Position numbers and translations under genes: made by a program. From assembly GCF_008831285.2 (NCBI RefSeq), contig NC_045148.1:20825002-20889001 (forward strand): a stretch of DNA of 64,000 bases, given 5' to 3'. Source of the DNA: Nymphaea colorata. Taxonomy: Eukaryota; Streptophyta; Magnoliopsida; Nymphaeales; Nymphaeaceae. Positions within the stretch are counted from its first letter, which is position 1, and every line of letters starts with the position of its first letter. Shown here one piece after another: positions 1,550 through 55,141 of this stretch. The notes under the pieces were generated by a model. It searched no databases and was not told the origin of the DNA. It saw only the letters and a list, made by a program, of their open reading frames with translations.

Positions 1550-4500
1550 TTAAGATGAAAATATTTTGAAATTTCTAATTGTACAGTCAATAACTCTGGC
1601 AAGGTCTTCAGGGCCCCATATGCTGAAGCTCACATCTTTATTGCAGTTCTGGTCACTGATAATATCCAAGTCTTTCCTGCTTTCTTTCTCTGCTAATTTT
1701 TCTGCACTGCATCCCAATACTTTTCCCATCTCATTATCTGGTCTCGCAGATGTAGCCAAGGTACCATATATTCTATTGACAGACATGCAAAGCTCATGGA
1801 ACTTGGGTTCCCTGAACAAACTTTTAATGTCCTGAAAGGCACTTTCATTCTTAGTCAATTCATGAGAATGCTCAGCTTTGAAGAAAACTGCTGATTTCAT
1901 CTCTTCTGCAACTTTATGTATAGATAATAAATTGCAATATAGATGACGTGCTTTGGCCAAATTTATACAAAGTCCCTTATCCTCAAGTTGATGGAGTTGG
2001 TTCATGTTCGCAATTGCGAATCTTCCAATGAAAGTGAAGAAGTCAGGGAAGTTCATGCCTGCAGTAAGAAAAATGTCAATGAGCTAGATGCGCAGGAATA
2101 CTGAAGGACAGAGACTAACAACCATTACCTGTATTTGCAGCAAGATTTCGTTGACAGAGGCCTTCAAAATCGTCACAGATATCTCGTATGTCTTCTATGT
2201 ATTCTTTTGCCTCATTATAATCTTTCACTAAGAGACTCCACTGAAAATTAAAAAGAAAAAATCAACAACTTATCCAACTATTCCTTGTATTGATATTCAT
2301 ACTGCTCAAGGAAAATACCACAAGCACCACTTTTACAGACAGATATCAACATCAAGTGGCACAGAAGAAATTCAAGAGTCAATTGACCAGGTTTGTGTGT
2401 GCCATTTGTTGCATGCTCATGGGCAACTAACAAAGTCATACTAGACAAGTTGGTTTCAGTCCAAAAGCTATTATAACACCTTAAAAGGCATTCTGATCCT
2501 CTTAATACAACCAAAATTCAGAAATACTCTTTCTTACCACCCAAAAAAGGTTGTGAGCGTTGAACCAATTGTGGTTAATGGAAATAGTGTCCTCCTGCAC
2601 CAAATCAGAGAGAGTGATATTAGAATCTCAAATCTAGCAAGCAATCCAGATGGTACTAAATGCCAACATAGAAGGACAAATACTACCAAATGTTTGACAA
2701 GCACACATCTACTATTTCAGAAACAGGATATCATGCACTGAACCATTCAAAAATAAGAAAACAAGGGGATTTACATAAAATGAGAAATATTCAGCTGAAC
2801 GGACTTCAACATATTTGAGCTGACAATCTAAATTGTTGAGAAACTACCTAATGGAACACACTCTGAGGTGGCACACATGAACATGGATGAGTATGAGATT
2901 CAGAGTACCAACACGCTTAGCCAAATAATAAGGGGTATTTTTTAGCATGGAAAAAGAAACAAATCCAGGAAATATCAACAATGATGGGGAATGAACTGCA
3001 CAGCCACGTAGTCAGGCTGTTTTGGGTCTGGTTTTCAGATTTGAAAGAAGCTCCTGTCTTATAGTGTCTTAGGCTACATGCAGCTACCACAGCCAAGGGT
3101 TCGTATGGGGATTTTTCATGAAGAGAAAAGAAAAGGAGAGAGAGATGGGATAGCTAGGCATGGGAAAAGCTGAGGTTTTATCAAAACAAAGACAAGGAGA
3201 GATGACCAATACTCCAGTAGAAGCATCATCACTTGCATTGAACCCACTGTGCATGACCCAGCGAGGATGCCTACATGTACATGGATATATCGGTATCTTC
3301 ATTAGGCTGATAAAAAGTTTGACAATGTTATCATAAGCTATTACTGAGTATCTGCACTTTTGATAGATTAAGGAGGTCCTTGCCATGTTTTTGTTCATCA
3401 TTCTCATGACCTTTAACTTGCAAATACTTTAAACCAAAATATCATTTCCCACCACGATAGCTTTTATCCCAGATACACCACCATGAAACTGGAGGATTTT
3501 TTCATTCAGGAAGAGACCCATGTTGACAACAACAAGAACAAACTGAGATCCGAATTCTTACATGCACAGTTTTTCACTTCCATTTTGGGATGGAGCCATG
3601 CCAGATTTATTAGATGGAAATGAGATTTATCATTTAAGGCATTCAAAAACAAGCTCACAGACTTGCAGAAGAATTAGAAATCAACAATAAGTTTTACACG
3701 GTCACAATTCACAAACAAGATCCAGGAAGAAGAAGATTATCAAATAGGTGAAGTCACCTAGAAGAAGTAATCATGCATAAGAAAATACATGCCTAAGAGG
3801 GAAAAATAAAAGAATTTAAGACTTGATATAAAGACAAACAGTTGCCTGAGAAAAATACCAGATTATGGACTTGATGATACCAGCCGCTAGGCACAAAAAT
3901 AACTTCATTTTTCTCTTGAGTACACCTCATCCAAACGGTCTGCAGAAACATATTATTTAGCATCTCTAGATTTAAAATCTACAAAAAGTAGAACATAAAA
4001 AAAAAAGAACCAAGATACCTTTCTAAAGCCTGGGAACTGTGTATCAGAAACATCATCAAAAATGTCGTATACAGAATTTTTCAAATTCCTAACAGTAAAT
4101 CACAGGCCCAAAAAAATGTAGGTTATAAGAAAAAGGCACATGACCAATGTTACTTGCATAAACTATCAGAAAAATGTTAAAAAGTGTGAAACTAGCTTAT
4201 AACATCTTCTGCAAAGTGTCTTTACTTGGATGTTTTCACAAATATTTTTCAACAATTAAAAAAATCACCTAATACGTCTTTGTTAAAAACTTTCATTTGT
4301 TATCCTTCACGATAATGTTAGGATATGCCATAAATATGTCATGAATGTGCATGTTATAGACATATCACATAATTGTGTATACCAATTCAGACCTCTGCAT
4401 GAAAAGCTGACTTAGCAAAGATCCATGGTCATCCCTCTTTAACCAAATTGATGTCATTTTCGTATTTCAACACAGGTAGAATGAAACAAACGGCAGCAAA

Positions 4501-7500
4501 GGAGTGTCTATGTGCATACTGACAAATCACATGCTATCATATTCAACAGGTGCTTTGTTATTTGATTAGATGTGCTTGTTGAGTAACAAGTGATGTAGGA
4601 TAAGAAGCGTACCTATCAAATATAAGGTGAGATTGTAATGGCGACAGAAAATGCCAGACTTTCTTTCCGCAAACATTTGCTGACCAGCTATAAGACCTGA
4701 ATACATCAGCATGCAAAGGAGTCCAAGTCCCTATGCAACAAAAGCAAATGTAGTTATCTGCACATTGGATTCTCCAGAAAATTCTAAAACTGTAGATAAG
4801 AAGCATTTTAGCAGATTGTAAAATAAAGCAAGCCGTGGACTAAAAAAAGAGGAACATGAACAACTAACTTTAAAAAATGCAAAAGCTCTCATCCAGCATA
4901 AAATAAATGTATAAAAACTCATTAAACTTGAGAACTGAGTAGATCTTATATGGTAAAATGCTTCCATGCCAAACCTGTTACAATATTATATAATAAGCCT
5001 TCATATGTTCCTTTGTATTAAATTTCCATAAAGTTCACATCAAGTTGCTATTAATGCCAATGCTTATTCTAAGTTTCTAACAAAAGTTACGTGGGAAAAA
5101 TAGTGATGGAAGATCCTTTGCAGATCTACATAATATACAACAAAAACCTCAGATGATTAATGTGAATTAACTCTATTCTCAGACATCAGGCACAGATTAG
5201 ATGCTTTTCCATAAGAAATTTTCTAGGGGACAGTTCCAGAAGTTTGATGTGATGTAACTGCATTCACATCCCAACATTTGACATGTTGGAGAAATGAGAA
5301 TCATCAACAACTCCCATTTCCCATAACCAAATTCATTTTGAGAGAGAGAGAAAGAGAGAGAGAGAGTAGGGAAAGCTCTCTCCTGATTTAAAAATTCTCA
5401 GAAAAGTTATTATCTTTTGCCCCAGGGATAATAGATAGTGATGATTTTTTACAGAAAAGTCTGAATATCCTAAGCAAGTAGAAAGCTGAATAATCAACAC
5501 AAATGTGAAAGTTCATATCATGGAAGGTGAAGATGTTCGAATTTTGAAATATGTAGTCAGTGACACTTGTGGCATTTTTACATCCATTCCCCCTATTGAC
5601 CTCAGTGAACACTGTTTAGGAATGACTAAAATCATATAGTGCTTGCAAAAGCACACATGAGCATGTGTGTGTACGCACAAGTTTCTATTATCATTATTTG
5701 TTATTTCAGAAAAAAAAAATAAAAAAGGAGTTAAAAATGACAAAAGCATATAAGGAGAACAACAGCAAAGAGTAAAAAATGATGTGAAGCAGCATACCTT
5801 TACAACCCATATACACAAAGCGGTAGTCAGAGCAGTTTAGTTCATAAGAAGCATCACTGTTTGTGTCTTCATGCATATGATAACTATCTAGGTACATGTT
5901 CAGCCAATCATCCAAGAAAAAATGTGGTGTAGCATATGCTACATAGGTAGGGTACTCCTGCAAACACAGCAATTATTAAAAAAATAAAAATGTAAGAGAC
6001 AGTAATTTTTTATCACATCAAAAGAAGGGGCTAAACGTATCCGGTTCTGTAAGCACATCTGAAGAATGGTCAATCATCACAAACAGAAAAAAGCAACATC
6101 CAGAACCCAAATGACATGTTCAAACGGCAAGATAAAATACCTTTTATGTTGACCAGTAGTTACATAATCTCATTCATATAATTTAAACAATTCGCAAGTG
6201 TAACAGGCTTAAAGAAGCTTTTTCTCACATATGGCATCCATTTTCTCGAAAAATAAAGTTATACAAATGATATCCTATAATCAGAAAGAAGAATAGATCC
6301 AAGTTATCTAACACAACTATAGCGGACTCTAAAATACCCTCTGTTTGCTCAAGGATTTACCATTTGTAATAAAAAATCACCAAACTAGTTGGCCTACATT
6401 TAGACTTTTCTGTCATAATTAGGCTCAGAAGCCAAGCTGATTCAGTTCTTTCTTTCATAGAAAAGTTAATTAGAACTGTCTCCTATTATTATGGAATGTT
6501 TATTAGAAATCAAATATCATGTACAATGTTTAGCTTAACATAACACCCTATGCCACCAAAGATAATTCAAATGACCCGCAAAACTTGTCAACTTAAAGTA
6601 TAAAACGCTACCTTAACAAAGTGCCAATCTTTCAAATATAGAAGTGATTCATTGCCATCTTGTTCAAGAAGTCTCTCCCAGTGGCCTATGAATTCTGAAA
6701 CAGACATTTCCTTCCTCTTCTGATCTGTGAACTCTCTTGTTCCACAATCCGCGACCTATACAAAGATAGCAGTTCATGCAAATAGTATCACTGACCTTCA
6801 ATAACTTTATATTGACAACCATATTATCATATATTCTCGTTCATTATCCAAGTTTGAATATTTATTGTATTTTTGAAGAGAAAAAGAATAAACTGCATTA
6901 TGTGAAATAGATCTTGGTAGTAAGAAAAGCGTTGCATATTCAGACCTCAGAGTAATGTTATATTCCATAACAGAGAGTTCCACCGTCTAATTAAGCAAGG
7001 GGGGTGGAAGAATTATCAATAGTCAATACATACAATCAAAGTCCGTAAATGTGGTGGGGTGAAAGAGTCATCAATAGTCAATACATATTATCGAAGTTCA
7101 TAAATGTCATCTTTCATCTAAAAAAGATGACAAAAGAAAGAAAGGGAAGCGTTTTCATTTAATAGATCGCATCACGCTCACATACTCATAAAAATTCTCA
7201 ACTAAAAGATGGCATCTTACCGGTTCTAGAAAACTATTCATGCATGAAAGAATAAGCATTTAAACCTCAGCAAGCAAAACTCAATGGAAATGTAGCTCAA
7301 CAGAAATTTAACCAGTAGTTGCACACGCCCGCAAGCATTTTAAAATGGAAGCCATGCTCGGAATCCTATCAATACTCTTTAAACAGAAAATGAAAAATCA
7401 CCACAGAATAGACATACCCACAACAAACTTTTCAGCACAGAATATAACCAAAAGGCTTACACCAGGATATTTCTTACCACTCTTCTGGAAGACTGGAAAT

Positions 7501-7807
7501 TACTCAGAAAGATTGCAAGGCGTAAATTAGTAACCAATCAAAAACATAATACATCAAGCTAAGGGCATGGAACACGGTGAAAGAAGAGAAAACTCACCTG
7601 GACTTTAGATTTCCCGAAGTGGGTAGAGAAGAAAGCAAGATTGGGCTCGCCATTTGGCTTTACCCAATCCTTGCAAGCCTGCCATCCATCCATCAAACCT
7701 GTCAGGAGCACTGGCTGATTTCTCTTCATATAGTTCTCGACGAAATCATGGTAACTCAGTTGCTTAGCGTCCAATCTCTCTATCTCCCCGACAATCTTGA
7801 CAACCAT
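1550..7807 (-). CDS. JMJ20: JmjC-domain 2-oxoglutarate/Fe(II) oxygenase, JMJ20/JMJD4 type
   Basis: Nine exons on the minus strand: 7807-7598, 6755-6612, 5957-5798, 4730-4613, 4088-4019, 3939-3859, 2594-2538, 2240-2129 and 2058-1550. All borders are GT-AG, phases close, and the product is 486 aa ending in TAA. The JmjC fold shows an HxD pair in TPLHADVFRSYSW (H178, D180) and the distal iron-binding His in VPSGWYHQVHNL (H256), followed by EDTISINHNWFN, a hallmark of the JMJD4 group. Known of the family: Arabidopsis JMJ20 is reported to remove histone H4R3 methylation during seed germination, and animal JMJD4 hydroxylates release factor eRF1; which activity applies here is not visible. The C-terminal 200 residues are helical and lack a known motif. 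ATG 7807 opens the conserved N-terminus. Confidence 0.93.
5341..5368. repeat. GA microsatellite
   Basis: A short impure (GA)n tract in a JmjC-gene intron, between the exons ending at 5798 and starting at 4730. Confidence 0.85.
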
Positions 7808-8081
7808 TTTTCTCCAATGTTTGGAAATTCACACATCAGAGATCGGCGGCCGAGTAAACGGTGTAGCCCTCCGGAACCATTTTATTGCGTCTGGGGCTGA
7901 CACCCGGTGGGACTTCTCGGCAGGCTGCGGACACCACGACTGGACCCAGACGTTGTCAACTGGTCGGACCAGCAGCGTCAGGCCCAAGCCGCAGGGGAAA
8001 AAAACACATTTATTTGAGAAACCACATCAATTCATTTTGAAACACACGTTTCTAATAATAATAATCCTAATGAAATGGAAC

Positions 8082-9143: not shown

Positions 9144-9277
9144 TCATCCCATGCCCTTTACTAAAGATCCTCCAAAATCGTCGTGTAATCGAGGAACAGA
9201 TTAAAAAGCCCAGATAAGTCGGAGGAACTGCCAATTGGTTTTATTGCAAAGTTACACAGGACTAATGTCACGAAAGG

Positions 9278-12200
9278 TCATTGACTACAAACTGTGTCAA
9301 GCAATTTCTCAGCTTCAGGAGCCACCTCTATGTTCTCCATCTTCAATCTTCGACGCATTGCTGGACTATTTTTCCCAGCAACAAAGTAAGTTCGAATCAA
9401 CGACTCGTAAACTGCACTGTCAACACATTCAACCTTCTTCAGAATCTCAAAGAAGTTTTCAGCCCCATCTACATCCTTCTGCTCTTCGAAATATGTCATA
9501 ACTGCCTCCACTGTTTCTTTGGTTGGCAACCATTTAACTTTTACACTCTTCCTTGATGCAGAAATTGCATTTTCAATGCACTTGACTACCTCATCGATTT
9601 GTTTAGTTCTTAAATAGTAATCAGCAAAAATCTCCCATGTTTTTGTGTTAGGTGCCGCACCTCGCTTTCTTGCTCTCTCGCGCATTGCCTCTGCCTTCCG
9701 TAGTCTATTGGCTTTTGCATATGCACCAATCAAGACATTAGGCAATCTAATATCATACGTTGAACAACCAGCTTCCCACTCCTTGAAGCAGTTCTCTGCA
9801 CCTGATATATCACCAAGCTTAACCAATACCTGTATCATGTTGAGATAGCTCAGATTGACTGTTTTCGGGAATGCCAACTTTAGAGATCGCCAGACACGGT
9901 ATACTTCCACTAAATTACCCGTTCTACCATAGAGTGTGATCAGATACTGGAATGCAGGAAGACAGTGAAGATCCATTCTATTCTCGAGTTCTTTCAGTGC
10001 CTTCTCTGCTTTATCATTCATACCTGCATCTACATATATGGAAGCAAGATTGCTGTAAGTAGTCCAATCAGCACCTACTCTGCCATCTCTCTTCATCTCA
10101 TCCAATACTCTCTCTACTCCAGGAATGTCACCAACAGCAGCAAGACTCCTCATCCACACGTTGTATGAGAATACATCTGGCATAACCTCATTGGCTTTCA
10201 TATCTTGAATTACTGCCGGAATCTTTTCAGGCTTCCCAGTCTCTGAGTAGAGGGTCATCAGGCTATTATACTCCATGGGGCTAGAAGCAAAATTAAGCTC
10301 CTTCATCTTCTCCAAGAGAGCTTCGGCATTTTCAGTCATTTTCTCCTTGCAATAACAGTTAAGAAGAGCTCCATATGAAAGATGGTTTTTTGATGGTTCA
10401 GGCAGATCCATAAAATATTTCTCAGCAGCAACAATCCCCTTGGTTTTGGATATAAGATCTAGATGAATTGCTTGATCACTCACAGTCAAATTCATACCCC
10501 TCCTGGTGGCTGTTTCCAGAAGCTGCACAATAATAGACAATGAGTATTAATATTTGAAGAAAGAAATGCTACGGAGAATAATTCTGTGTAATTGTAAGCT
10601 ATTGACGGAAGAACCAGACATCAGGGAAAATATTTGGTAACCTTTACATAAATGTCATCAGGTTGCAACAAGTTGCACAAAATATCACTAGATGCTTGTG
10701 GGACAATTACAGCATAAAAACGATAATCTATAAAAAAAACTGTGCTCACCATTCACCATCGTTGAAAGGAGGGAAATAATTTGAGCCAACAAATAAGCGA
10801 CTACTATTAAAAACACACACAAGGCAAGCATTTTTCATAAGAGGAAAACTCACACAAGATTTTGTCTGTTAGGTCAAACAAGAAATCAACCTTACCACAG
10901 GCTATCCACCACTAGAAGAAGATTATCAAGGAACCAACATTAACACACTTTTAAGTTGTATTAAAAAAATTACATGAAAATTTTTCACTTCACAGCATAT
11001 GCATAGTTAGTTTGAGAGGCAGAACAAATAAAAATTCCAAATCAGAAAAGAACAAGCATGCAATTTTCCCAGAAATAATAACCCACCTTCACAACAAACT
11101 ATTAGACTAAATGGCCAAGGCTAACAGTCATTTTATAATTCAGAGACCAGTTTAGTACATAGCATCACTAATCGCTGGGTTACTACTGGAATTTTAAAAC
11201 GTCCTTGTCCATGAGTCTTTTTTACAGATTGACAGATGTAAGTTCTATCCACTCAATATCACACTCGAACTTCACTAAAAGGCTTTACATTCACCATCCA
11301 ATGCCTTAAGGGGGTGTTTCCCTCGAATTTTGATTCTAGGATTAAAATTCTAGAAACAAAATTTCATCTCAAACTAGAATTGGAATGAAAATCCTTGTTC
11401 TAGTTTCCCTTTGTGTTTGATAGTCAGGAGTTTTGATTCCAAAATTGAAAATGATGTGTTTGATAAAACAGGAACTAAAATTTTAGAATTGATGAATTAA
11501 AACCACCATGACATATGCCTTAAAGAGAGATAAAAAAATTCTAAAATTCTGGAATCATAATTCCACCACCTAAGGTAGAATCATACTTCCAAAATTCTGA
11601 TTCAAGAATAAGTTTATAATTCCTGAATCAAAACTTTTGTTTGATACCGCAATTCCCATTTCATAAAAAATAATAATTTTAATTCTAGAAGTCTACAATT
11701 CCAGCCTCATCAGTCTTCAAACACCTCTTAATGAATTCATCTTCCATACACCTCGGTGTCAGTCAACAGGCTTGCAGTTCCATAATTCTCATCTGGCAAG
11801 CATAATAGTGATAAAGGAAACATTATTTCCTTTTGTTCAACAAGAAAAAATATCATTTTAACGCCAAGTTATCTTTTCAAGAGAGCTTCACGGTACGGTA
11901 GCTGTTTGTTATGTCTTGAGTCTCAGCACATCTAACAGTTGTCCAGATAGGGTTCTGTCCATCCTTATCCAGACAATCAAATAAATATGTGCATAACTGT
12001 GATAAATCTTAGCACTCGCTCAGGGCTTCAAGGTGCATGTGTACAGTTAGACAAAGACATTGACCTACTGATTTTTATGCTCACATGAGATGCATATTGG
12101 AGGCTTAATGTCTAAATGTGAAACAACCTCATTTATCCCATTTTCCTTTTTCCACATACTCTATCACCTAACCCTCAGTCCATTCTTACGTTTCCGTACC

Positions 12201-13052
12201 CATCGGTTTCTCCCTTGGGCTAGAATCCCCTTATGAGATTTTTTTCTTTTTCACTTCCTTTGTATCTCCAACATTATTCTACTTCCTTGTACCCTTTCAT
12301 AAGCATGATATTTTAAAAACATGCAAGTTTAAACTTTTTGACATAATGTATAATTCTCTTATATTTCCTTTTACATCACAAGTATTGCAGCTTCTGGCGC
12401 ACAATGTAGTGAGCAGGCTTATTACATTTTCTCGATCTCTGGTGTATCAGAACACCCAGTAGAAGTACTCGATAGACAAAGAAACGAAAAGAACAAAACT
12501 TCAACATAGCTCCTGATGGAAATGATTTTTTCTTTAAAAAAAATTACCAACCCCAAAGAAAAGAACAGCCTAATCATTCTTAAGAAAGAACGATAAACAA
12601 GATTAAAGGAGTACATCCATAGCAGATGAGCAAGCCCAAACAGACACCATCATTCCCGTTGACATTCCATAAAGCCTAAACAACCAGACAAATTCTAAAA
12701 AAAGTAATCAGCAACAGAAATGCAGCGTGTCGACCAAGATCTCTTAATGTATCATCTGAAGAACAGAACGAGAAAGAGAAAGAGGGAAACGGGAAAAAGA
12801 AAACCAAAGCAAAGAAAGTTATATAAGGCGATGCACCTTGAGGGCAGGGTTGAATAGTTTGCGTTTCCTGAGATCCTTCACGGATTTGCCGACGTCCCAT
12901 TTCTTGAAACGCCTGGAATCTTTCAGCCACTTGTTGATCTCCCCACCAACGCTCCTCTCAGAGGTCCCTCCCTTGAACAGCCTACGGTAGAGAGCCTCCC
13001 TCACCAGCCTCGCCGTTGGCCTCGCTAGCTTCTCTGTGGCCTGTGCCGCCAT
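9278..13052 (-). CDS. P-class pentatricopeptide repeat protein (At1g60770-like)
   Basis: Two exons, 13052-12837 and 10522-9278, joined in phase 0 by a 2.3-kb GT-AG intron, give 486 aa ending in TGA. The short first exon encodes an Arg- and Ala-rich N-terminus (MAAQATEKLARPTARL) that could be an organelle targeting peptide, then KRKLFNPALK running into LLETATRRGMNLTVSDQAIH. From about residue 110, 35-residue helical-hairpin repeats follow, with typical starts such as YGALLNCYCK, YNSLMTLYSE, YNVWMRSLAA, YSNLASIYVD, YLITLYGRTG and NVLIGAYAKA. There is no E or DYW tail, so this is a P-class RNA-binding protein, expected to act on mitochondrial or plastid transcripts. The RNA target cannot be read from the sequence. 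Similarity to the Arabidopsis At1g60770 type is by recall. Confidence 0.92.
11310..11727. mobile_element. Tourist-like MITE in the PPR-gene intron
   Basis: The left end is GGGGGTGTTT and the right end in reverse complement is GAGGTGTTT. Both are bordered by TTAA (11306-11309 and 11728-11731), matching the short TTA/TTAA target duplications of PIF/Harbinger-type MITEs. The 418-bp interior is AT-rich with repeated inverted words (ATTCTAG, GGAATT) and no open frame for a transposase. It lies wholly inside the intron between 10522 and 12837, in the gene's transcribed region. Confidence 0.6.
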
Positions 13053-13804
13053 CGCAAAGCTCTCCCTCTCCCTCCCACTTGGGGTTGCCCATTTAAACTT
13101 GCAATAAATCGTCCTTGTCGGGAAAATATCGGACGAAATTAACTAAATAAAGATTACTCGGAGAGTCAGAGTAATAATTTTCAGCCTTCTTTTTTTTTTC
13201 AGATATTCTGCTCTGGGCAAAGACGCCTCTACCAAATACACTATAATTTTCATACAGAGATACATTTGAAAATTCATCAAATTAATTGCACTATTTGTTG
13301 CATTGTGCTAAAAACACAAATATTTCGTTCCTTTTTCAGATTTTTGTACAGAGTGATCCAAGTCACCAAATACACTATGTATCATTCTTCAATTAGGTAT
13401 TTACTAGCCGTGTATATGTCAAAATCACTTGTTAGAATTTATCTCCAACCATAAGATTACCTTCATATGAAAAAGTAGGGATTACTTGAGTCATGAAAAT
13501 TTTATAAAAGAAGACACTCAACGCACTCGAACAAAAGGCAAAGCAAATTCAAGTTTCAAGGTTTCCTCTTTACATACTTGAACTGTGGAATACGTCCAAA
13601 AAAAATAAAATAATGGTTAACATATTTTCTGTCACTTACTCAAAACGCCATTTGAAAGTGACATCCAAACATGACCTAAATGTTCTCACATTTAACCACA
13701 CATTTATCTTTGAGAAGTCACTTGCTTCCATACATTGGACAACATTTTTTTTTGGACAACATTTAAAAAAATGTGTTGCAAAAACAAATTTTATGAGGTA
13801 ACTA

Positions 13805-14257: not shown

Positions 14258-15365
14258 AAGACAAGCTTAGTTTAGCTTTTTTATTTTTGATTTCACAGGC
14301 TCCATCGATGCTGCCAGTATCAAAATCCATCTTGTTTCAGAAACCGGAAGAAATTATTCTAAATCAAAATTTAAACTAGTTTTCCTGTTATTTTGTTCAA
14401 ATATTCTGCTGATTTAGGGAAGGATCGGCTGATATTGCTTAAATCGATTTTATATCGTCCGATATTTGAAAAAGCCTTGTCTTCTGTGCTCTTACCTGCA
14501 TCTTTCATTTTGTTATTGTTATAATACATTGGTCTAGGCAAGCTTTTGTTGCAGTTGCAGATACAGTTCAATATGCACCAACATTGATAGCACTGGTCTT
14601 CAATACACTTGTGGTCAACAATTTTTTTAGTAACCACCAAAGATTGAGCATTTCCTTTTTCAGTTTTCATAAAGTATTATTTGCTACTGTGTACAAGTGA
14701 GAGTCTTACATGGCTTCATCTCACAAACCCCTAAAAGTCAAACTCAGAGGCCATTTGACAACGAAAGAATTGTGTTCCTGCAACAACTGTTTTTAAAATA
14801 CACGGTACACTTCGTTTGGTTCTAGAAAACGTTATGCAAGTAATTCAACAAGTAAACATTAAACATAACATATTATATTTTATAAAACAAGAATAAGGTG
14901 CTTTTTGAAACATACATTATAGGAATATGTACTTTAACGATATAAAATCTTCTTACCAAACATTCTCTCATAGCCTCCACACAAAAGCACATGGTAAAGA
15001 ACTTATCGACAAAGTGTGTGCATTTTTAATATAAGACAGGAGAGGAAAAAACGGGAAGAACAAGTCTGGTCACGCTGCTAAAACTGGGGGCTTGGTGGAG
15101 AGGAGCTATGGGGGAGGCGGCGAACCGGCAGTCAATCACAATTTCCCAAAGTACTAAGTGTAGTGTGGAGCACAAATCTCCATCAAGTTGCAGAGACTGT
15201 GGTGGAGCATGCACCGTCTCGTCAACTTGTGATTTCCCTGTTAAACTAATAGCTGAAAACATGAAAGCAGCCGGTGTCTCTGTATTATCCACGGAGACAT
15301 CGGATAAAATTGGAACGATAACAAGAAGATTAGAATCGCCCCTGCACAAGGATGACACACACATA

Positions 15366-15368
<3 letters not shown>

Positions 15369-15398
<30 letters not shown>
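15369..15398. repeat. CT microsatellite
   Basis: An uninterrupted CT tract of about 15 units between the PPR and AP1M2 genes. It creates Ser-Leu (plus) and Arg-Glu (minus) runs in the overlapping frames, which argues against coding. Confidence 0.9.
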
Positions 15399-15401
<3 letters not shown>

Positions 15402-16561: not shown

Positions 16562-18776
16562 TCACGCGAGCCTCAATTCATATTCACCAGCCATGGTTAT
16601 GTATCTCACCCAAGGAAGGGCTTGATATCCACTCTTTTCAATGATTTTAAGGTACCGAACCTACAACATCAACAACAGGAAAAAAAAAAGATTAAACCAT
16701 ATTTCAAACAGATGGACAAAGAATCAGAATCATTTTCCATGATTTTGAACAGATTAGCAGATCATTCAGCTCCATTATCACCAACTTTTTTCTCAGATTA
16801 TTAGTGGTGTTTATAATTTTACACTACTCCATGAACACTTAAAACTTTCATCAACCAGTTTGCTGGATGAGTCATGGCCAAACACCACTGATTACACACG
16901 AATACACAGAAACAAATATTCCTATATCAGTTCAGGAACATCCATGCACATGCACACATACAGAGGCATGAGAAGAGATACCTAGAAATAGAAACTATTG
17001 TGCTTCAAGCCATTTATATTTTCCCTATCTTCCTGGATGTGTGAGATGGGGATAAAAGAACCAATTTAAGAGAAATCAACACTTAGATGGATCATCACAA
17101 AGTCAAGACAAAAGAAATACAAGAATGTCAATATTTTGAATATATGGAAATATTTACTTGAGATATTCATAAAGTTGGGTTGCCAACAGAGGCCGTACTA
17201 TCAACAATACATGGTTATATCTGATTTTAAATTTGTTCAGGAGGTTGATGTTTAACTGTTATAAAAACGCAGCTGCTCTTTTAACCTTACTTCCTTTGAG
17301 AAGGTTCTGAGTATATCAAGCAATTATTTAACTGTACACTTCCCAAACATTGTTCTAGCCGGTTTGACGATCCTATAACTGTAGGACTACACACGATATT
17401 GAATCCAACTCTAACTGGCACACAATAAGTGCTTATCATGGCTCTGGGTGATTCTGCAAGCAGGAAATTGAACACTATCAATAACAATAATTTGCCAAAT
17501 TGTGAGAGTCATATGAATGGTTACTCCATGATTGGGATGAGCACATCTTTTTCCCTTATTCTGGTAAAGTTTTTCCTTCACTGATCATGTCCTTAGTAGA
17601 AAAATTAGTGAACTAGATGTGGCATTTTAACAAGGAACTAATAAATGCTTGTATGGAAATAATGAAACACAATTTACTGAGGTATGTCTTCTAAATAATG
17701 AATAATTTCTAACACCATGTTTGAGTAGTAATTGTCCTGCTATCTATATCTTTCCTGCCTGTTCAATATTTGCTATGTTATCATGCAGAAATAATCAGAG
17801 GAAATTCTATCTCCATTGAAAAAGTTGGAGTACCTGTGCCTTCAAGTCGGTGGAAGAAGATGTTGCTCTACATATACAACTATAACATACTCAATCTTGA
17901 GAAGCTAAGAACCTCGAGTCAATAGGCTCATGGAAACCAACTTAGTTCATTTCAGAATAATTATATAACCATTAAAAACATGAAATAAAATCCTCTCGAG
18001 ATGTATCCATGGATTATTGTCCACAATTCGTGAGGTCAATAAGATACCAACAAGAGGCAAAATCCACACAGGGACAAGAAAAAACCTGTATTCCTGAGAC
18101 TGTGAAGTATGGAATCTCAAACTTCACACGAATAGGAGCCTTTTTCTCTGGTGTTGCTTCTTCTGAAGTTATACTTGGCAAACTGAACTCTGCACGCAAC
18201 ATATACTCCTAGACGACCAAATAAAAGATCAATGTAAAACTAAAATGAGAACTTAATATTGCAGATGATTACATGGAAAAAAACCTCCAAACAGAGCCTA
18301 GAACAATGTGATTCAACCAAACATAACACACCTTTCCACCAGGAAATGACTTTATTTTCCATACAAATGCATCATTTTCAGGAGCATATGAAGCAGATCC
18401 CATAGAAGTCCGTACATTAGGGTTGGTGGCATCTGAGGGCACAGGAAGCTCAATTTCAACATTTGTTGCAGTGCTGCAGACAATCATTCCAGCAATACCA
18501 TGAAGCAATCAGGATTGAATACTAGAACCAAAAGAGAATGCAAGCAAGAACTATCAAAGAACCTACCTACGTTCCTTGAATTGACTCCTGGCCTTAACCA
18601 TGAATTCTATTCGGCTTCTTGAATGCCTCTCTACTTGAGCTTCCACCCATATCAAAGGTTTTACCTAGAACAGCTAACAGTTCAAGTTTCATGTGCAGGG
18701 GAAGGAAAGAGAGAGGGAGAGAGTGAGGGAGGGAGAGACAGAGGGAGAGAGGGAGAGAGAGAGAGAGAGAGAGGGA

Positions 18777-18824
<48 letters not shown>

Positions 18825-26400: not shown

Positions 26401-26915
26401 ATTTATGTTCTTGACGCATATGGTGGGGAGAAGGTCTGTCGTGCATCTGCTAAGTAGCCTTTGGGTGTAATGTCTAGCTGAAACTTATCTGTCTGCTATG
26501 GTATCTTACTTTTTATGTAGTTCCTGTGGACCTGATGCTTACACGTGCTCTAGTTTCATTTTTGCTCATATTTGTTATGTTTGTGACATGTGACTCTGAT
26601 GGTAATATTGGATTAAATGAATACAAGGTCTTCATAATAGGCAAGGATGGTGTCTGACATAACTTAGGTCTAATACATTCTATGATTGAGATACCTCTGT
26701 CAGTGTTAACTGTTAAGTACATTAGGTACATACGCATATGTGATTAGAAAGTAAGATCACCCTATAAAGTTTGATATGTTAAAAAATGTATGTAACAGGG
26801 ACTCTTCGAAACAGTTGCAGCACTTGGGTGCGGCAACATACAATTTTTTTTTCTTTTTCATTAGATCACTGATATAATCATAGGTTTCCAATTGTTTTTT
26901 TTTTTTTGGTTTGTG

Positions 26916-26995
<80 letters not shown>

Positions 26996-36036: not shown

Positions 36037-36038
<2 letters not shown>

Positions 36039-41970: not shown

Positions 41971-42167
41971 AGGCAGGCTAATGGTTGGCCTCTACCTTGA
42001 AGAGATGGTAGTGATGGCAAGGCAGGCTAATGGTTGGCCTCTACCTTGAAGAGATGGTAGTGATGGCAAGGCAGGCTAATGGTTGGCCTCTACCTTGAAG
42101 AGATGGTAGTGATGGCAAGGCAGGCTAATGGTTGGCCTCTACCTTGAAGAGATGGTAGTGATGGCAA
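41971..42167. repeat. Minisatellite, 4 copies of a 49-bp unit
   Basis: Units begin AGGCAGGCTAATGG at 41971, 42020, 42069 and 42118 and read through GGTAGTGATGGCA with no differences that I can see between copies. Such uniformity implies very recent expansion. A GC-richer CAGCCTGATAAG/GGCCCAGCC block follows. Confidence 0.95.
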
Positions 42168-43477
42168 GGATGACATCAGACTGGCCCAGCCTGATAAGTC
42201 GGACTAGGGCAGGGCTGCAGCCCGTGTCCATGGCCTAAGCTCAGCTTTACAGTAGCTTAGATCCGGCCCAGCCTAGCCTGGTCATGGCGATGCTAGGACT
42301 GGGATCTGTCATACCATGTCCGTCTTTTCTAATAAGTGGATATCAAGAATAGATTTACTAAGGCCCTTTACATATGAGGAGACTTAAAAATAATTATCTC
42401 TTTAAATACAGACAAACATGGTACCAGCCTTTAAAATTTTGAACTGAAAGGGGCATGTGTCCGTCATCTAAAAAAGCAGACGTGAATTTGAAGGACACAA
42501 AAGAATCGCTGGTTTAGAAAAACTGCAATATCAAAGAAGAAAACAACACATGAAAAATTTATAGAGATGTTAGTGTCAAATCATCCCAGGTACACGTAAC
42601 ATGACCACAGGCCTTATCCCAGCAAAAGTAGCATGTGGTATGTCTGGAGAAGCACATTTATGCTACCTTTGATACCATTGCTTTGCCATCTCTATTTTGA
42701 AGCGACCACCTGGACTTTTTGTCTGATGTCATGATTTACCAAACACTATATTGGGTGTGTGTGTGTTGACAATGCAGCATTCTTTGATACCAACACTCAA
42801 ACCTTGATTTAAAGGATGAAATCACCTCAACTTTGATCTTCAAAGGCCGAATTATAGTTTCAAAATTTTGACAAGAGTCAAAATATCATTTTTCAAAATT
42901 TTTATGTAGAATAAATGATTTTATTTTAAATTTACATGTGAAATTTTGAACAAATATTTTTTGAACACCGCCCCCCTCTCCCCCCTGCTTAACATCATTA
43001 CGAGGCTAAAACTGCATGGTGAAAATTACACAAAATCATTGAAAAGCAAGAAAATTAGGTCATTAAACGGCAGGGGCAATAAAATGTTTCATCTACTCAT
43101 CACCATCGACCTGATGTTGATAACTTAGGAAGCTGGTAATAAGGTTCAAAGATGGGGTCGCAGGTGAACTCTAACTGCTTGGTGACTAAAAGAATTTTAA
43201 ATATGACACTGAAAACACCATAAATCATTGCTGCACCATAAACCGTCGCTAATGCCGCTTGTAGTGTCTGTCTTTTAGTGATCAATTTTTAACTTTTAAT
43301 CATCTCGTAGATTTGTTTAAAGTGGGTGCTGCATGCAGCGTTCTACCTAGTAGATGATAACTAGACTGCTAGGCCGAGTTGGCTACTACAATTCGAAAGA
43401 AAAGCACAAGCATCACTGTGGCTAGTTCTGCTAAGCTTGATTGGAAGATGAAGGTGAAAGTTGCTTCAAGTCAAGGG

Positions 43478-47174: not shown

Positions 47175-47298
47175 CCTCCACCCCACCTCACAAATTTGAG
47201 GCGAAGCAGAGGTTCAGCCACATATCGGCTCAGCTGCTAGGGCTCAGCTGCTAGCCCCGTGTGGCTGAGCCATCGGTGGAGCCTTCTGCACCGGCTCC

Positions 47299-49630
47299 AT
47301 GTCTGCCGTACTGTTATTGTTCTCCATCGTGTTCGTGCTTCCGCTCGCCATCCATGGTGACCTACGTGTTGGGTTCTATCAAGAGACATGCCCTTTAGCT
47401 GAAGCTATCACTAGAGGAACCGTTTTTGCAGCAACCGTATTGAATCCCGGTATCGTTCCGGGTCTCGTCCGGCTTCATTTCCACGATTGCTTTGTCCGGG
47501 TAAGTAGTCGTTTTTATGATTCTGATTGCTATGGCAAGCGACCAGGTTTATGCGACCAGGTTTATGGGGAATCTAATGAGCCTCGAGAACGACCTGATGT
47601 ATCAGCTGCCGTTGGACCAGTGAACGGCTGAGGCCTGGATTGACCCACAAAGCAAGATACTAAAAATAGGCTTATGAACCGAATGGGAGGATTATCAACA
47701 AGATTGGTGCCTCGGGTGGGCTTAGCTGATAAGTAGCTAGTCTTTGTTTCAAATCTCCAAAAGGTGCAACGCGGATCTAACTGGCTAGAAATATTTAAAA
47801 TTTATTTTTTAAGAAAAATAAAAAAATCATTAAAGTATTTTTAAATATATCAAAAATTCGCTAAGACACATGGCATTACTAAAATGGCCACGAAAATAAA
47901 TTCGATTCAAATTAGCGATTCAGGACGATTCTAATAGCACTAGCACAAAGACCTCGCGCATTTGCATCTCTTACACTTACTTTGCGCATAAAAAAATTAT
48001 GCATTTGTTTCTTCTTACAAGTTAATGTCTCTTATGTTTGGGATATACATTTAAAAAATTTTTAACTAACCTTTTACATGAAGCAAATGTGCATGGACAC
48101 TTGTTCAGTGTTGCTTTCCCGTGATGCGTGTGAACAGTTCGTTTATTGTCCTACTATGGCGAGTAAAACCATTGAATTATAGAACCGGTCATATTGCCTG
48201 TTCTAGGTTATAGAATATCGGTTGGTATGAAACACCAACCTTCTTTCTGTTGCAGTATACAGGTCCACCATCTGGTTCAACAGCAAAGAATATGTATCCT
48301 GATTGTCAAACCTCACACCCCTTCCACCTTGAAGGCTTTACTAACCAATCCACCTAGCCAGGCGTGTGGAATCCCTGCAGACGATGGCAATTTACGAGAC
48401 AGTGATGATCACTATGACCACTCTAGGGTCATATGTTGGCAACCCATCTTTCATCCTGCCTATACCTGCATGTTCGCACCTCATCCTAAAAGCTCATGAT
48501 CACCTTCTTCTGGAAACTCATGATTATCAGTAGTTAGGATCAAATGAACGACGTAGATACATGCAGCATAGTCAAAACTTCAATTCTAGTTTTTCTCCAA
48601 AAGACTTGAATTTTTTGCTTTTCCAAAAGAGTGTCTTGCCGTTACAGCAGACTTTAACTTTTGATCAGAAGTTCGACACTTCTTATACTTGGCCTACAAC
48701 TGGATCACAACCATGGGAGAGGGGATCTTTCATCTTCTAGGATCGTATCGTCTCCTCAAATGCTTCCTAAGTCCACCTATCCCTAAAATGAACTGTACGC
48801 GATCACTACTGCTATTACCATGGAAATATTGACCTGCATTTGCACGACAGGGTTGCGATGGCTCAATTCTTCTGGACAGCCCTACCGAAGCGGAAGGGGA
48901 TACTGCGGAGAAGGATTCCCCATTAAATGGCGCCTCCCTCCGCGGCCTCGAAGTTCTGGACGACGTGAAGGCTCAGCTGGAAATAGCGTGTCCAGGAACC
49001 GTCTCCTGTGCAGACATCTTAGCTTTCGCTGCCCGTGATGCTGCCTCCTTCGCCGGCATACCGTACTACGAGGTACCATCGGGTCGGCTAGACGGCCGCA
49101 TATCACTGGCTGACGAAGTTCCGCACAACCTTCCCATGCCCTTCTACAACCTGTCCACCCTGGCCAACCTTTTCGCTTCGAAAGGCCTAAACCTGGAAGA
49201 CTTGGTTGTTCTTTCCGGTGCACACTCCATGGGACGAGCCCATTGCCCATCCTTCCACTATCGCCTCTACCATTTCTCACCAACACAACCGCAAGACCCT
49301 TCTCTCGACCCATCATACGCAAACTATCTCAAGTCGATCTGTCCGCCGACGGTAAAGCCACTTGGTGAAAGCTCGGCGGTGCCGCTGGATGCAATAAGTT
49401 CGAACATGATGACTAACACGTTCTACGTGGCGCTCACACAACACAAAGGGCTGCTAGGCACAGATCAGTTACTCATGAGCTCTTTGCCAACAAGAAAGAT
49501 GGTAAGAAGATTAGCGCACAGCCCACACCTTTGGCCGAAGATGTTTGCAGAGGCAATGGTAAAAGTGGGAAGACTGACAACCAATGAACCAGGGGAGGTG
49601 AGGAAATATTGCCGATCTATTAATGGCTGA
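47299..49630 (+). CDS. Class III secretory peroxidase
   Basis: Two exons, 47299-47499 and 48851-49630, join in phase 0 (FVR|GCDG) to give 326 aa. A signal peptide (about residues 1-20, MSAVLLLFSIVFVLPLAIHG) sends it to the apoplast or vacuole. The distal haem motif is LVRLHFHDCFVRGCDGS (Arg58, His62) and the proximal one LVVLSGAHSMGRAHC (His192). Eight Cys for four disulfides are present (31, 64, 69, 114, 120, 199 and two in SICPP and KYCR). It would oxidise phenolics with H2O2 in wall crosslinking or defence. Only the first of the usual three introns is present, so it belongs to an intron-poor branch. Codon use is GC-richer than in the surrounding genes. The particular subfamily is not certain. 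Confidence 0.95.
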
Positions 49631-49942
49631 CGCCTGCCGGGCAGTCTCCGGCTTCTCGGTCTCCAAGCTGGTGTAAGGGAAGATGCATATCAATTAAGCG
49701 GATATCCTCTTTTTTCTTTTTAGCTTCAGTACTTATTTTCGGTCATCAAGGTGTTCGTCCAGAAAGCAAAACTCGATGGTCATCTGTATTTTGTTGGAAT
49801 CATTTTGTCTTAGTATATATGCTATGACGGCAGAACTTCAAAGACCAATTTGTGTAAACACAATCTTGTTTTTCTATATGTACAACTCGTCTTTTAGCCA
49901 CCGTCTCTTACTAACAAAAAGCAGAAGACACCTCACCCAGGC
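49631..49942. other. Convergent intergenic gap, peroxidase and PHS1 3' ends
   Basis: Only 312 bp separate the two stop codons. The stretch is T-rich on the peroxidase side and has no coding signal. It should hold both 3' UTRs and may allow overlapping transcripts. Confidence 0.6.
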
Positions 49943-52900
49943 CTATGGCTTGTAGATGCCCCCCATTTCGTCCAGTGCTTGCTCCACGCTGTGCAGGACA
50001 TCTGATAAAACGCCACAAAAGAACTAGCTTCAGCACTGATAATTAGGCCCGTCAAAACACAAGGCAAGTTTTCATTTGATTCATATGGAACTGATTGGTA
50101 AACCAATTAATGCATACCTTGAAAAGAAGGATCCATCATGTAATCCTGCATATAAATATGACAAGGAAGATGCTTCACTGAACCTAGAAGTAAACCGAGA
50201 AGAAACAGGAGATGACATGAAACTGAGATCTCATGAATACCACAATCTTTGATTTGAGACCAGGCTTTTCAAGACATTTCATCTCCTCCATAACATTTTT
50301 TGCACTGTCAGCTGGAGTCAAACCTGCACCAGAAGATTCTATTTAGGGCATGATTGAGGGTAATCAATCATACCTCAGCGCCCGATGAGCAGCCAAAGTG
50401 GTTGGTTGGAAGCACTAGGATTGGTAAGCAAGCCTCCTCATGAACAACTAGAAGTGTTCATTTATTTCAACGGGATGAACGCATCTCATGATTACCACCA
50501 AAGCAATAAGTAATGCACCATCAGATTCTTGAGATCGCAACACAGTAGGGGAATAGAGGGCTCAGTCAAGGGTGGACGATACTGAAACTACCTCAGTGAA
50601 ATATGAGTGGGAAAATACAAACAAAAAAATTGAAAAAAGAGAGCAATTGGATAGGCCAACAAGCAACTACTCCGCCTTGTAACAATAACCTCGATCCCAT
50701 AAAAAATTTTTCTCATAGAAGTTGAGGAGAAACAGATAGAGTTATGTACCTGTAGGAGATCCACTACAGTAGCTGTTCAGCAAGGCAGCAAAACTAGGAG
50801 GCAAGGCTCCAAAGATCGATTCTAGGTCATCAACTGCATTCAGATTCCCAGGAGCAGAAACACATGGTGGTTTTTCTGTTGCTAAAGGTGATAAATGAGG
50901 ATGATAGGCATCAACATGGCTTCCAAAGCTGGGTTCCTCTTCTGCCCTGCAAAATTTATGATAGTAATGTTAGCAGTAGTTACATTGCAAAACATTGTTA
51001 ATTTTGGAATATGTTGTTGAAATTGCCAAGGAACTTACTAAATATAATTTAATCCTGAAGTTATCATGAACAAGTTCGACTTTGAACTGACAAACCTTCG
51101 GGCTTCAACTATGTAACGTTCTCAGGTTGTTGCACACCACAAGGTGAATGTTCACCCTGCCTATTGAATTGATAACATGGGCTTCACCAGGCCCAGATCC
51201 TTATTATACACAAGGGCATGAGAGAAGTTCCCATCGTTTTTAGTGACCAATAAGTGTATTTCCTTGCAACAATGTTAAACACCGACTTGATAATAGAGGA
51301 GAAAAGATACAATATTTAAAGAATCTTACCTATAACGTGGTCCAGTAGAAACAGAAAATTCAGTAGGACATGAATTTTCACATAGAAGACTGTTCCCTCC
51401 ATAATCATTTGAGACTTCGATACCAACTTTTAAGCACTCCTGAAATAATACAGAATTTTTACACTAAAGAAACCATATGAAATTCACTTACGCTACCTCA
51501 GATTCTTATACAAAAAACTAATCACAGAATAATGATCATCATAGACCAAGACTGGTTCAAGAGGGTTCTGACATTCTATATTGCTAGTAGAATTTACAAG
51601 AATTTGGACCAAAGCCAAACTTTCTCCACACAGTGCAAGTGTATCCATGGATTGGGACCTTTGTCCTTTATAGAAAGCTCCAGTTAGAAATAGAAGAAGA
51701 TCAAATACACCTTGTAAGGGATAAGGAGTAGATCAATTATAAGGAATTAAGGAATGACACTATATTTGGGTTCTTCAACGACTGAGAAAGAGTTCCAGAG
51801 TACGAGAGCTTTGCTATATTACGTTTCATAAGTTCATACAGAAAAGGAAATGTATCAATTACCTTCAAAGAGATCAAAAATGAGTGTGCATCGGAAGCTG
51901 TTGGGAATCTTAGTCCAAATTTTTGAACCTGCATAGTTCGTTGAAATTTCAAACAATATTAAATGCTTGGCTTGGAAATAAGAAATTTATCTAATAGCTT
52001 TGGTGGCATCTGATCCAACAGCTGACATGTCAAAATAAAAAGTGCTGTGATGGGTTAATCTCAGATTCTCCATAAAAGGGCTTCAATCAATTTCTCACTA
52101 GAAAATTTTTAGGTGCACGTTCATCTAAACATTGGTGGTAAATCAGAGTTTGTGTGGACTTGGTAAAGATGTAGATTCGCTCATCTCCTGTCATCTGAGT
52201 TGATGAGAGTGACAAACTTCTTTCATTCTTTTACATCTTCATGAATGTAATGGCACGCATTTTCAGAAAACATCTTGGTGCACGTTCATCTAAACATTGG
52301 TGGTAAATCAGAGTTTCTGTGGACTTGGTAAAGATGTAGATTCGCTCATCTCCTGTCATCTGAGTTGATGAGAGTGACAAACTTCTTTCATTCTTTTACA
52401 TCTTCATGAATGTAATGGCAAGCATTTTCAGAAAACATCTAGAGTGCCCATTATCTTTTCTACAATTTGGGTTTCTCAATGATTTGAATGCAGAGGCACC
52501 TCTGTACAAAACTAAGGAGAAGCAGAGGAAAGCACCTGCATGATCATGTATGACAAGAGTAGAGAATAAGGAGAAACATCCTTTAAACCCCTCCTCTCCC
52601 CCCCCACCCGGGTCTTCATACTTCCTCAAGAAAAATGAAAAATAAAAGCATTTATAGTTTGATGGTGTCTCACATGGATATAGTGAACTACTCTGCAAAA
52701 AATTCACATAAAGGGACTGATTTCTAAAACAGAAATTTTTTAGCCCAAATATAGAATGGGGAAATTTTTCTTAATTTGAAACAGAAAAGTATGGGTTTCA
52801 TATGATAGCTTGTGACATCCTTGAACCAAAAGTCACTTTCTTAATGGTTGATTTGAGGATAATAGCAGCCACCTTTCTTTGTGTAACTAAAAGTAGGTTC

Positions 52901-55141
52901 AATGAAATTGAAAACTTGCTTGGATCTGTTGAGTCAATTTGTTAAAGCCAAATGTAGACATGCATTAATCATGTGCTTCACCCTCAAAATTTTCACCTCT
53001 TATGGCAAAAGTTTCTATAGAAATTTCCATGCTCTTTTGAACATATTAAGATGGACAAAGAGATAAGAACTGATATTCTTAGTTGTCAAGGCCTAAAGTT
53101 TAATGATTTTGATCACATTCATGATCAAGAAATGTGTGCTTCACAAATAATCCTAACTTCATCATCACGAAACATAAACAACAGAAACAAGAAACTAAAA
53201 TAATCTTCAAAACTTGCCTCATCAGTATGGTCTCTGTAGCTTGCAAATACAAGTCTACTTCCTCGGCAACATGATATTTTCGGCCAGCAAAAGTGAAGAT
53301 TGGACACATAGTGTTCCTCCTGAACAAATAGATAAAAACAAGGAGATGAGATGATATTTCCGGCTTATCATAAAATTACAAGTAAGCTATATACTAATCC
53401 ACACAGTAGTTAACTTGCAAATACAAATAAATATTCCGAAAGAGCCCAACTAACATGTCATGTAACTCACGAAAGTGCTACATTGCTATTGAGCCAAAAT
53501 GAACATAAAGAATAAATTAAAAAACAATAAAAAAGATAATATTTAATGCAAAATATGTAAAAACTACAACGTTCCTTTTTCATCGTAAAATACATGCATA
53601 AACCTACTATTCCAAAAGCCAATGAGGACACTACCTACAGATGTGCCAGCAAATGTGGATGGATAAATCTGCTAAATTAGGATGTCCAACTGCACATAGA
53701 AATGGGACGAAATGCCAGTCATTTTACAAATGAAACGCAGAGAAAGAAACCGTCTTCTAATGGCTTGTTTAGTCCAAATAACAATAGAACAACTTCCCTG
53801 CCTCTTACGATCGACTAACCCAGTGCAAGTGCCGTAAAAAACTAAAGATGCGTTACAACAAAATCGATCCGTTTTCCCTACAGCATCCAAAAAAAGTTCA
53901 AATATACAAAGGTGCACACTGCTTCGAATTACATATTAGATAAGACAAGGTAACTATGGGATACAGAACCTGACCAACTGATAAAGACTGAAAAACAAAA
54001 AATAACTAACACAGCAACTTAAACCCTTTCAGGAGCAGCTGAAGAACGTGGAATTTATCTTAAAATCAAGAAACGAACAATAACTCGTTATGCATCGGAA
54101 ACAAGAAAAAGAAGCAAATAAGTATCTAACCTGTGGTTACTATGTTGGAAAAGACGGATAAAAGAAGCAAAGAAAAAAAAAAGTAAAAAGATTAGAGGCC
54201 GGAATGTCCTCCAGTAAGCAAAGAACAAGAAAAGTGAAAGGTGAATTGAGAAATATTTCTAGAAATGGCAAGACTATACCATGTTTTTTCTCTCAAAAGA
54301 AAATAAATGAAAAAATAGGAGTAAATACTTCATAGAGAAATCAATTATATCAGGAAACCACAAAAGACAAACAAGAATATGAAGTGAAACCAGTACAACG
54401 AACAGACGATGAAGAAGAAGTGTAATTCAACATTTCGACTGTACAGTAATTGAAAGCGGTACCTCATTTTTAGAGGAGAAAAAAAGAGGAAGACAGAGAG
54501 AAAAACAGAGGAAAGTAGAACCCGTCTCCATTCATTCTTCAATTCCAGGCAAGAAACCACCGGAGCTATTCGTCTAAAACAAAATTTCGTCAAGACAGAG
54601 ACTATAACGATACATAGCGAGCTTCGCACAAAAGCAAGAGATCAAACAAAAAGTCCATCAGTGAAAAATCTCTAGAAAGAATCCTCGAACTTTAAAGAAA
54701 AAGAAAAATTAAACAATTTCAATCAACGTTCGGAGCCAAAGTTCACCGAAAAAGAAGAACCAGAACAAAGAACTCGGAGAACCACGCGGATCATATCATG
54801 TAAGAAGAAGAGGAGGAAGGACGCCGGAGAAGTGAATCTCTATTTAAGGAGCTAATAAGAGAGCAAGTTCTTACGTGGATGTTTCCCTTGAGAGAGACAA
54901 CGAGTACGGCGCCGGCCTGCTGCTGCAAGAGGAGGAGAGTGGCGGAGGAGGAGGACGCCAGCCATGTCCTCCTCCCCGACCGTCGGTTCGTCGCTCTCAG
55001 GTGAGGCGAGACGGGAAGCGTCACGGGAACCACCGGAGGGACGGTGATGAGCTGCGCCAGCTGCGCATGCCACCGGTTTCCGTTCCCTAACTCGCGCGTG
55101 CGGAGATCGTCAGTCGGCACGAGAGCAAGCACCTGATTCAT
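49943..55141 (-). CDS. PHS1: PHS1 (poor homologous synapsis 1) homologue
   Basis: Eight exons on minus: 55141-54875, 53319-53218, 51928-51863, 51439-51330, 50946-50750, 50323-50241, 50145-50118 and 50001-49943, phases closing to 303 aa. The N-terminal half has RRSGRRTWLASSSSATLLLL, AGAVLVVSL, EEHYVSNLHFCWPKISC, RGSRLVFASYRD and VQKFGLRFPTASDAHSFL, the conserved PHS1 core (PH-like in character). The C-terminal end is DVLHSVEQALDEMGGIYKP. Known: maize PHS1 is needed for homologue pairing and RAD51 loading in meiosis, and Arabidopsis PHS1 promotes nuclear entry of RAD50. Intron 2 begins with GC (GAG|GCAAGT at 53217), the classic GC-AG consensus. A tandem duplication lies in that intron. Confidence 0.9.
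52112..52441. repeat. Tandem duplication, two 165-bp copies
   Basis: GGTGCACGTTCATCTAAAC begins at 52112 and again at 52277; each copy runs to TTTTCAGAAAACATCT. I see only a few substitutions (TTTGTG/TTTCTG, GGCACG/GGCAAG). It lies in PHS1 intron 2. Confidence 0.95.

Follow-up and report, generated by a model that had tools for sequence, protein, structure and literature searches.

Do genes that lie side by side in a water lily record a gene neighborhood of early flowering plants, or were they brought together later? The question is raised by a stretch of 64,000 nucleotides from Nymphaea colorata, whose lineage was among the first to branch off within the flowering plants (contig NC_045148.1, positions 20,825,002 to 20,889,001; hereafter the window), in which homologues of JMJ20, a pentatricopeptide repeat (PPR) protein, the mu subunit of the AP-1 complex (AP1M), LATERAL ORGAN BOUNDARIES (LOB), and PHS1 are found in one place, whereas in Arabidopsis the homologues of this block are scattered over at least three. 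A sequence-only reading of the window had proposed that it keeps an ancestral block that Arabidopsis split and thinned after genome duplication. We infer that the window probably does keep part of a neighborhood already present in the last shared ancestor of water lilies and the rest of the flowering plants, with the five genes forming a single block when the lines to Nymphaea and Arabidopsis parted; the union of the five is seen in this genome alone. The ancestral linkage of JMJ20 with LOB is well supported and very likely, and that of the PPR gene with AP1M is supported and quite likely.

Results

Identity of the five genes

The open reading frames (ORFs) of the window were defined from stop to stop, and selected ones were searched with profiles against Pfam and by sequence against the PDB. 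Copies were sought in the whole N. colorata genome (407.8 Mb in 783 contigs), where the window is C11 20,825,002-20,889,001. From the ORFs, Pfam, the PDB, and tblastn, eight genes were recognized, in the order JMJ20 (minus strand), PPR (minus), AP-1 mu (minus), a WD40 gene of the Swd2 type (plus), LOB (minus), a class III peroxidase (plus), PHS1 (minus), and an anthranilate phosphoribosyltransferase (AnPRT)-like gene (plus). The five homologues named in the sequence-only reading are all present, as judged by Pfam, the PDB, and tblastn with Arabidopsis PHS1 (AtPHS1), and all are on the minus strand, at or near the places where that reading had put them.

The AP-1 mu gene (16568 to 22472, minus strand; PF00928) consists of 11 exon blocks that sum to 428 codons, a total from which codons at exon junctions may be missing. 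Judged by its PDB matches, with E = 6.8e-175 for AP-1 mu-1 versus 3e-89 for AP-2 mu, it is certainly an AP-1 mu gene. The LOB gene (36040 to 36877, minus strand; two exons; PF03195, E = 1.3e-38), an LBD gene of the LATERAL ORGAN BOUNDARIES type, had RAMOSA2.1 as its sole PDB match (E = 1.8e-62). It is identical to RAMOSA2.1 at 91 of 105 residues, and two other Nymphaea LBD proteins at 82 and 81 of 105; the comparison took in these two paralogues and left out a third, at C3 7.97 Mb, which is 73% identical to the window LOB. In BLAST bits, the two paralogues scored 173 each versus 168 plus 38 for the window LOB, whose alignment is broken by the intron.

PHS1, a gene for a Rec114-like meiotic protein, was placed at 49958 to 53325 (minus strand) by tblastn with the AtPHS1 (At1g10710) sequence copied from PMC9957857. 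The match at 53325-53218 was significant (E = 2e-7); those at 51931-51752, 50942-50775, 50142-50113, and 50002-49958 were weak (E = 0.06 to 1.7), collinear, and on one strand. An extra N-terminal exon may reach about 55100, the identity to AtPHS1 at 55075-54842 being just 25%. The evidence for orthology agrees among these three genes, that is, AP-1 mu against the PDB, LOB against RAMOSA2.1 and the two paralogues just named, and PHS1 against AtPHS1. Between two of the PHS1 exon matches, a 165-bp unit is duplicated (52112-52440, 98%).

The JMJ20 homologue (JmjC/cupin-8; 1553 to 7828, minus strand) comprises exon ORFs at 1553-2083, 4561-4839, and 7562-7828 and probably others. Its best PDB match is JMJD6 (E = 1.6e-6), and the Cupin_8 and JmjC scores of its pieces are under the curated Pfam cut-offs, evidence that is weak piece by piece. 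The PPR gene (9281 to 13142, minus strand) has its main exon at 9281-10546 (PF01535, E = 9.3e-33; PF13041, E = 3.2e-30) and its first exon within the ORF at 12819-13142; a genome search with this first exon matched the window at 12828-13064, and by itself the exon gave no Pfam match. The name JMJ20 is a putative one taken over from the sequence-only reading, and the PPR assignment is likewise putative and at the family level.

A joined query of five window genes (JMJ20, the first exon only of PPR, WD40, PHS1, and AnPRT, with AP1M, LOB, and the peroxidase left out) was then run against the genome in a search that scores best candidates only, and 19 matches were obtained among these. For JMJ20 (three pieces), PHS1, and AnPRT, the window was the sole match among the best candidates. 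The WD40 gene has a paralogue at C9 13.39 Mb. Four of the five non-window matches of the PPR first exon among the best candidates were at C2 2.56-2.76 Mb (34 to 51% identity) and the fifth was on C5.

Linkage of the homologues in Arabidopsis and grape

Adjacency in Arabidopsis was read from locus numbers. We take At5g63090 to be LOB itself and, following the sequence-only reading, At1g60770 to be the PPR neighbor of At1g60780; a literature search returned no paper pairing At1g60770 with another of the block's gene terms. The other loci named in that reading were found in papers, with At5g63080 as JMJ20 (PMC9083068), At5g63090 as an "AS2 (LOB) I" gene (PMC3485569), At1g60780 and At1g10730 as AP-1 mu (PMC9301471), and At1g10710 as PHS1 (PMC9957857). 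At5g63110, close to LOB by locus number, is HDA6. Judged by their numbers, the homologues in the neighborhoods At5g63080-63110, At1g60770-60780 (with At1g60770 as the presumed PPR gene), and At1g10710-10730 lie next to each other or two loci apart.

The grape gene collinear with AtJMJ20 is VvJMJ21 (Vitvi17g00875; PMC12465334), and the LOB orthologue VviLBDIc1 is Vitvi17g00890, at chr17 10,710,469 (PMC5698300). Distances in grape rest on locus numbers: the two genes are 15 numbers apart, or about 0.19 Mb by interpolation between two LBD genes. By number, the raffinose synthase gene Vitvi17g00885 (PMC13389845) stands between them and HDA6, Vitvi17g00894, just past LOB (PMC7473812, PMC7397606). 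The chromosome 17 interval Vitvi17g00875-00894 is like the window in that JMJ20 and LOB are linked, with at least one gene between them by locus number, but it differs in containing HDA6 and raffinose synthase, neither of which is in the Nymphaea neighborhood. Grape positions of PPR, AP1M, and PHS1 did not turn up in the papers searched. As for melon, the accessible text of the LBD paper contains no MELO3C identifier, and the melon JMJ paper gives positions.

The linkage of JMJ20 and LOB is old, as the sequence-only reading had held: it is found in the Nymphaea window, in grape (Vitvi17g00875/Vitvi17g00890), and, going by locus numbers, in Arabidopsis. Thinning of the block in Arabidopsis fits as well, because at least one gene lies between the grape pair by locus number, and to this extent the proposal that Arabidopsis split and thinned the block is supported; a single-block origin of the At5g63 and At1g60/At1g10 groups is not established.

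Could the window genes have come together by chance, with paralogues misassigned and no synteny conserved? Among 31,580 genes (the count in PMC7015852), two given genes fall within 4 ranks of each other with a probability of 2.5e-4 and are adjacent with a probability of 6e-5, so that coincidence does not explain the presence of both Arabidopsis neighbor pairs in the window, given a correct Arabidopsis order. LBD, PPR, and peroxidase genes do form large families, the list of Arabidopsis neighbors is partly presumed, JMJ20 and PPR are identified at the family level rather than by alignment to their Arabidopsis namesakes, and the LBD gene at C3 7.97 Mb stood outside the RAMOSA2.1 comparison, all of which would speak for coincidence. 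Nevertheless, besides the low probability of each pair, among the best candidates the pieces of JMJ20, PHS1, and AnPRT have no match outside the window, the window LOB is nearer to RAMOSA2.1 than the two other Nymphaea LBD proteins are, AP-1 mu is unambiguous, and the JMJ20-LOB pair is repeated in grape. We consider chance exceedingly improbable.

Linkage in three lineages could also mean that selection holds the neighbors together as a functional cluster or regulatory block, for example through LOB control elements in or beside JMJ20. LOB indeed lies in a stretch where no further gene was recognized (29.6-36.0 and 36.9-47.2 kb), the six ORFs tried there against Pfam giving nothing but DUF3915 on an AG repeat. 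However, the products belong by family to unrelated processes, and many ordinary linkages persist by descent; we regard such a cluster as very unlikely. A specific form of it is a long shot as well: putative LOB regulatory elements in or around JMJ20 would keep the two genes together in water lily, grape, and Arabidopsis, making up a plant "genomic regulatory block" in which the demethylase gene is only a bystander. Common descent, with the genes only loosely linked, explains this most simply, since by family they serve unrelated processes; the linkage would have been kept by descent and not by shared function.

A second AP-1 mu gene on C2

Another AP-1 mu gene, with the identical set of 11 exon blocks, was found at C2 2,908,491-2,914,906. 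Over 428 codons, the C11 and C2 genes show 96.7% amino acid identity and a synonymous divergence (dS) of 0.95 (NG86) or 0.82 (YN00). The divergence of the pair fits the age of the Nymphaealean whole-genome duplication (WGD), being near its KS peak of ~0.9 (PMC7015852). Four relatives of the window PPR sit 148 to 351 kb away from the C2 AP-1 mu gene. Together with the WGD-age divergence of that gene, they lend some support to the claim of the sequence-only reading that the linkage of PPR and AP1M is conserved.

We compared all window ORFs of at least 30 amino acids with the 200 kb at C2 2.81-3.01 Mb, at a printed threshold of E < 1e-4, and no gene but AP-1 mu matched. AtPHS1 gave nothing significant in the same stretch, and none of the 41 matching pieces from a genome search with LOB was close to the C2 AP1M at 2.9 Mb. 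Around AP-1 mu, the C2 stretch instead holds a ZIP transporter gene (E = 9e-26), an RRM gene (E = 2e-7) that we take to be "C3H41-like," a TAA/TAR-like gene (Alliinase_C, E = 5e-32; best PDB match, L-tryptophan aminotransferase 3bwn), an RST1-like gene (DUF3730, E = 0.008, under the cut-off), an oleosin gene (E = 3e-42), and a MAP kinase kinase gene (MEK2 in the PDB, E = 6e-8) that is presumably "MKK3-like." When these six genes were joined into one query, one ORF piece each, 26 genome matches were obtained, none of them close to C11 20.8 Mb. Two further observations were made on this stretch and its genes. Tandem genes resembling SABATH methyltransferases, named from a reading of the ORFs, lie at C2 2.96-2.98 Mb (L022-L024), and the ZIP query matched C3 6.2715-6.2776 Mb with 71% and 95% identity; the more similar of these copies may have arisen by recent duplication.

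A wider block?

Part of the C2 stretch (2.84-2.93 Mb, L010-L018, with the RRM, TAA/TAR-like, RST1-like, oleosin, and MKK-like genes) resembles, in part on presumed gene identities, the Arabidopsis neighborhoods At3g27650-27700 and At5g40420-40440. We take RST1 to be At3g27670, the window AnPRT-like gene to be of the At1g70570 type, and TAA1 (At1g70560) to adjoin the AnPRT gene (At1g70570) by locus number; in the water lily, the TAA/TAR-like gene lies on C2 and the AnPRT-like gene in the C11 window. At3g27650 is an "AS2 (LOB) I" gene, At3g27700 is "RRM-containing," and At3g27660 co-occurs with At5g40420 in each of 15 listed papers, several of them about oil bodies. The chances are about even that the C11 and C2 segments complement each other as remnants of a single larger block, now spread over at least five Arabidopsis places, one of which (At3g27650) would keep a LOB relative; parts of this picture are presumed.

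Other genes and small elements of the window

The WD40 gene (approximately 24800 to 29602, plus strand) scored slightly under the Pfam WD40 cut-off. Its best PDB match was "Uncharacterized WD repeat-containing protein C824.04" (E = 2.4e-10), presumably the Swd2 protein, from which the Swd2-type label comes. The AnPRT-like gene starts at 58649 (plus strand; Glycos_trans_3N, E = 4.3e-8) and, with later exon-like ORFs, extends to approximately 62039; it gave no PDB match. The class III peroxidase gene (47269 to 49630, plus strand; PF00141, E = 2.2e-66) has a published position: NcPOD67, or Nycol.K01635, is on N. colorata chromosome 11 at 20,872,205-20,874,787 (PMC11788295), which corresponds to window positions 47204-49786, and our peroxidase ORFs map to 20,872,270-20,874,631. 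A literature search for the Nymphaea identifiers K0162 to K0164 returned this peroxidase paper alone, and the accessible main text of a JmjC survey of 21 plants contains no Nymphaea gene identifiers.

Between LOB and the peroxidase gene there is a tandem array of 4.1 copies of a 49-bp unit (41971-42169, 100% match). A copy resembling U6 small nuclear RNA (15276-15386, plus strand; Rfam RF00026, 61 bits), the 3' end of which passes into a CT repeat, is probably a decayed one. At 63426-63651, a 75-bp unit is repeated three times (87%); both strands carry open frames there, and one of these frames gave no Pfam match. Ten additional ORFs of the window gave only DUF3915 on an AG repeat when searched against Pfam, and the search of the window for transposon hallmarks yielded isolated motif matches only.

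Discussion

The preferred reading, a five-gene block inherited from before the Nymphaea-Arabidopsis split, would account for the present arrangement as follows. In the line to Arabidopsis, the block would have been multiplied by whole-genome duplications, each copy losing different genes, with the outcome that one segment carries JMJ20 next to LOB and others carry PPR, AP1M, and PHS1. The same process would have acted in the water lily, where the C2 duplicate segment would have kept AP1M and probably the PPR relatives; the other window genes would have been lost from it or would never have been there, and it now holds a different gene set.

Several observations weigh against this reading. The C11 and C2 segments are joined by a single certain anchor pair (AP1M), under the minimum of four consecutive pairs that a duplicated segment needs in the water lily paper (PMC7015852), and the C2 PPR genes are just 34 to 51% identical to the window PPR in the sole exon compared. 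One certain anchor pair with a PPR array nearby is suggestive of a duplicated segment, but is not proof of it; additional pairs may exist beyond the ends of the window. No second genome has been shown with PPR, AP1M, or PHS1 alongside JMJ20-LOB, and since the window is itself from Nymphaea, that genus provides no independent test as a comparison species. The At5g63 and grape neighborhoods are not kept whole in Nymphaea, because HDA6 and raffinose synthase are elsewhere. As a further common neighbor of LOB, HDA6 was ruled out, none of the Hist_deacetyl matches in the genome being near the window: the nearest on C11 is at 10.37 Mb, more than 10 Mb off, and the others are on other chromosomes, on unplaced contigs, or farther away on C11. 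Raffinose synthase was ruled out as a common gene of the JMJ20-LOB interval, its Nymphaea copies being on C1, C3, C5, and C12. In grape itself, the printed coordinates of HDA6 (10.61 Mb) would place it ~80 kb on the opposite side of LOB from that given by its locus number; perhaps the two papers used different assemblies.

Histone-deacetylase-like matches are present on four short, unplaced contigs (C571, C768, C717, and C45), and two of the matches run to nearly full length in a single frame; the contigs are possibly contaminant DNA in the assembly.

Some of these observations would also be expected if two separate ancestral groups, JMJ20-LOB and PPR-AP1M-PHS1, had been joined when the water lily lineage underwent rearrangement, so that the two groups would be ancient but their union would not. 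No other genome has been shown with all five genes together, HDA6 is not beside LOB, and on C2, AP1M and PPR relatives are present but JMJ20 and LOB were not found, as expected if the groups were unlinked at the time of duplication. The lack of JMJ20 and LOB on C2 is, however, equally expected from fractionation. Moreover, the groups are interleaved, in the order JMJ20-(PPR-AP1M-WD40)-LOB-(peroxidase)-PHS1: JMJ20 and LOB flank PPR and AP1M, and PHS1 is past LOB, an arrangement that calls for an insertion within one pair and a separate move at the minimum. Because a later fusion needs these extra events, we favor one block, and a fusion seems to us unlikely, although it deserves serious consideration.

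If the five genes do descend from one block, the window offers a concrete gene neighborhood of early flowering plants that can be checked between the water lily and eudicots. It would also suggest that the duplicate segment of the water lily itself has lost genes, and it should be an aid to ortholog calling for LOB, JMJ20, AP-1 mu, and PHS1.

The known system closest to the window is conserved microsynteny with fractionation after WGD, as described for angiosperms, including the Nymphaealean WGD (PMC7015852). In the window, as in such cases, the same pairs are linked across deep lineages and the copies of a segment keep different genes; the difference is that only one certain anchor pair, AP1M, connects the two water lily segments. 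The window illustrates an ordinary process well and leaves general views unchanged.

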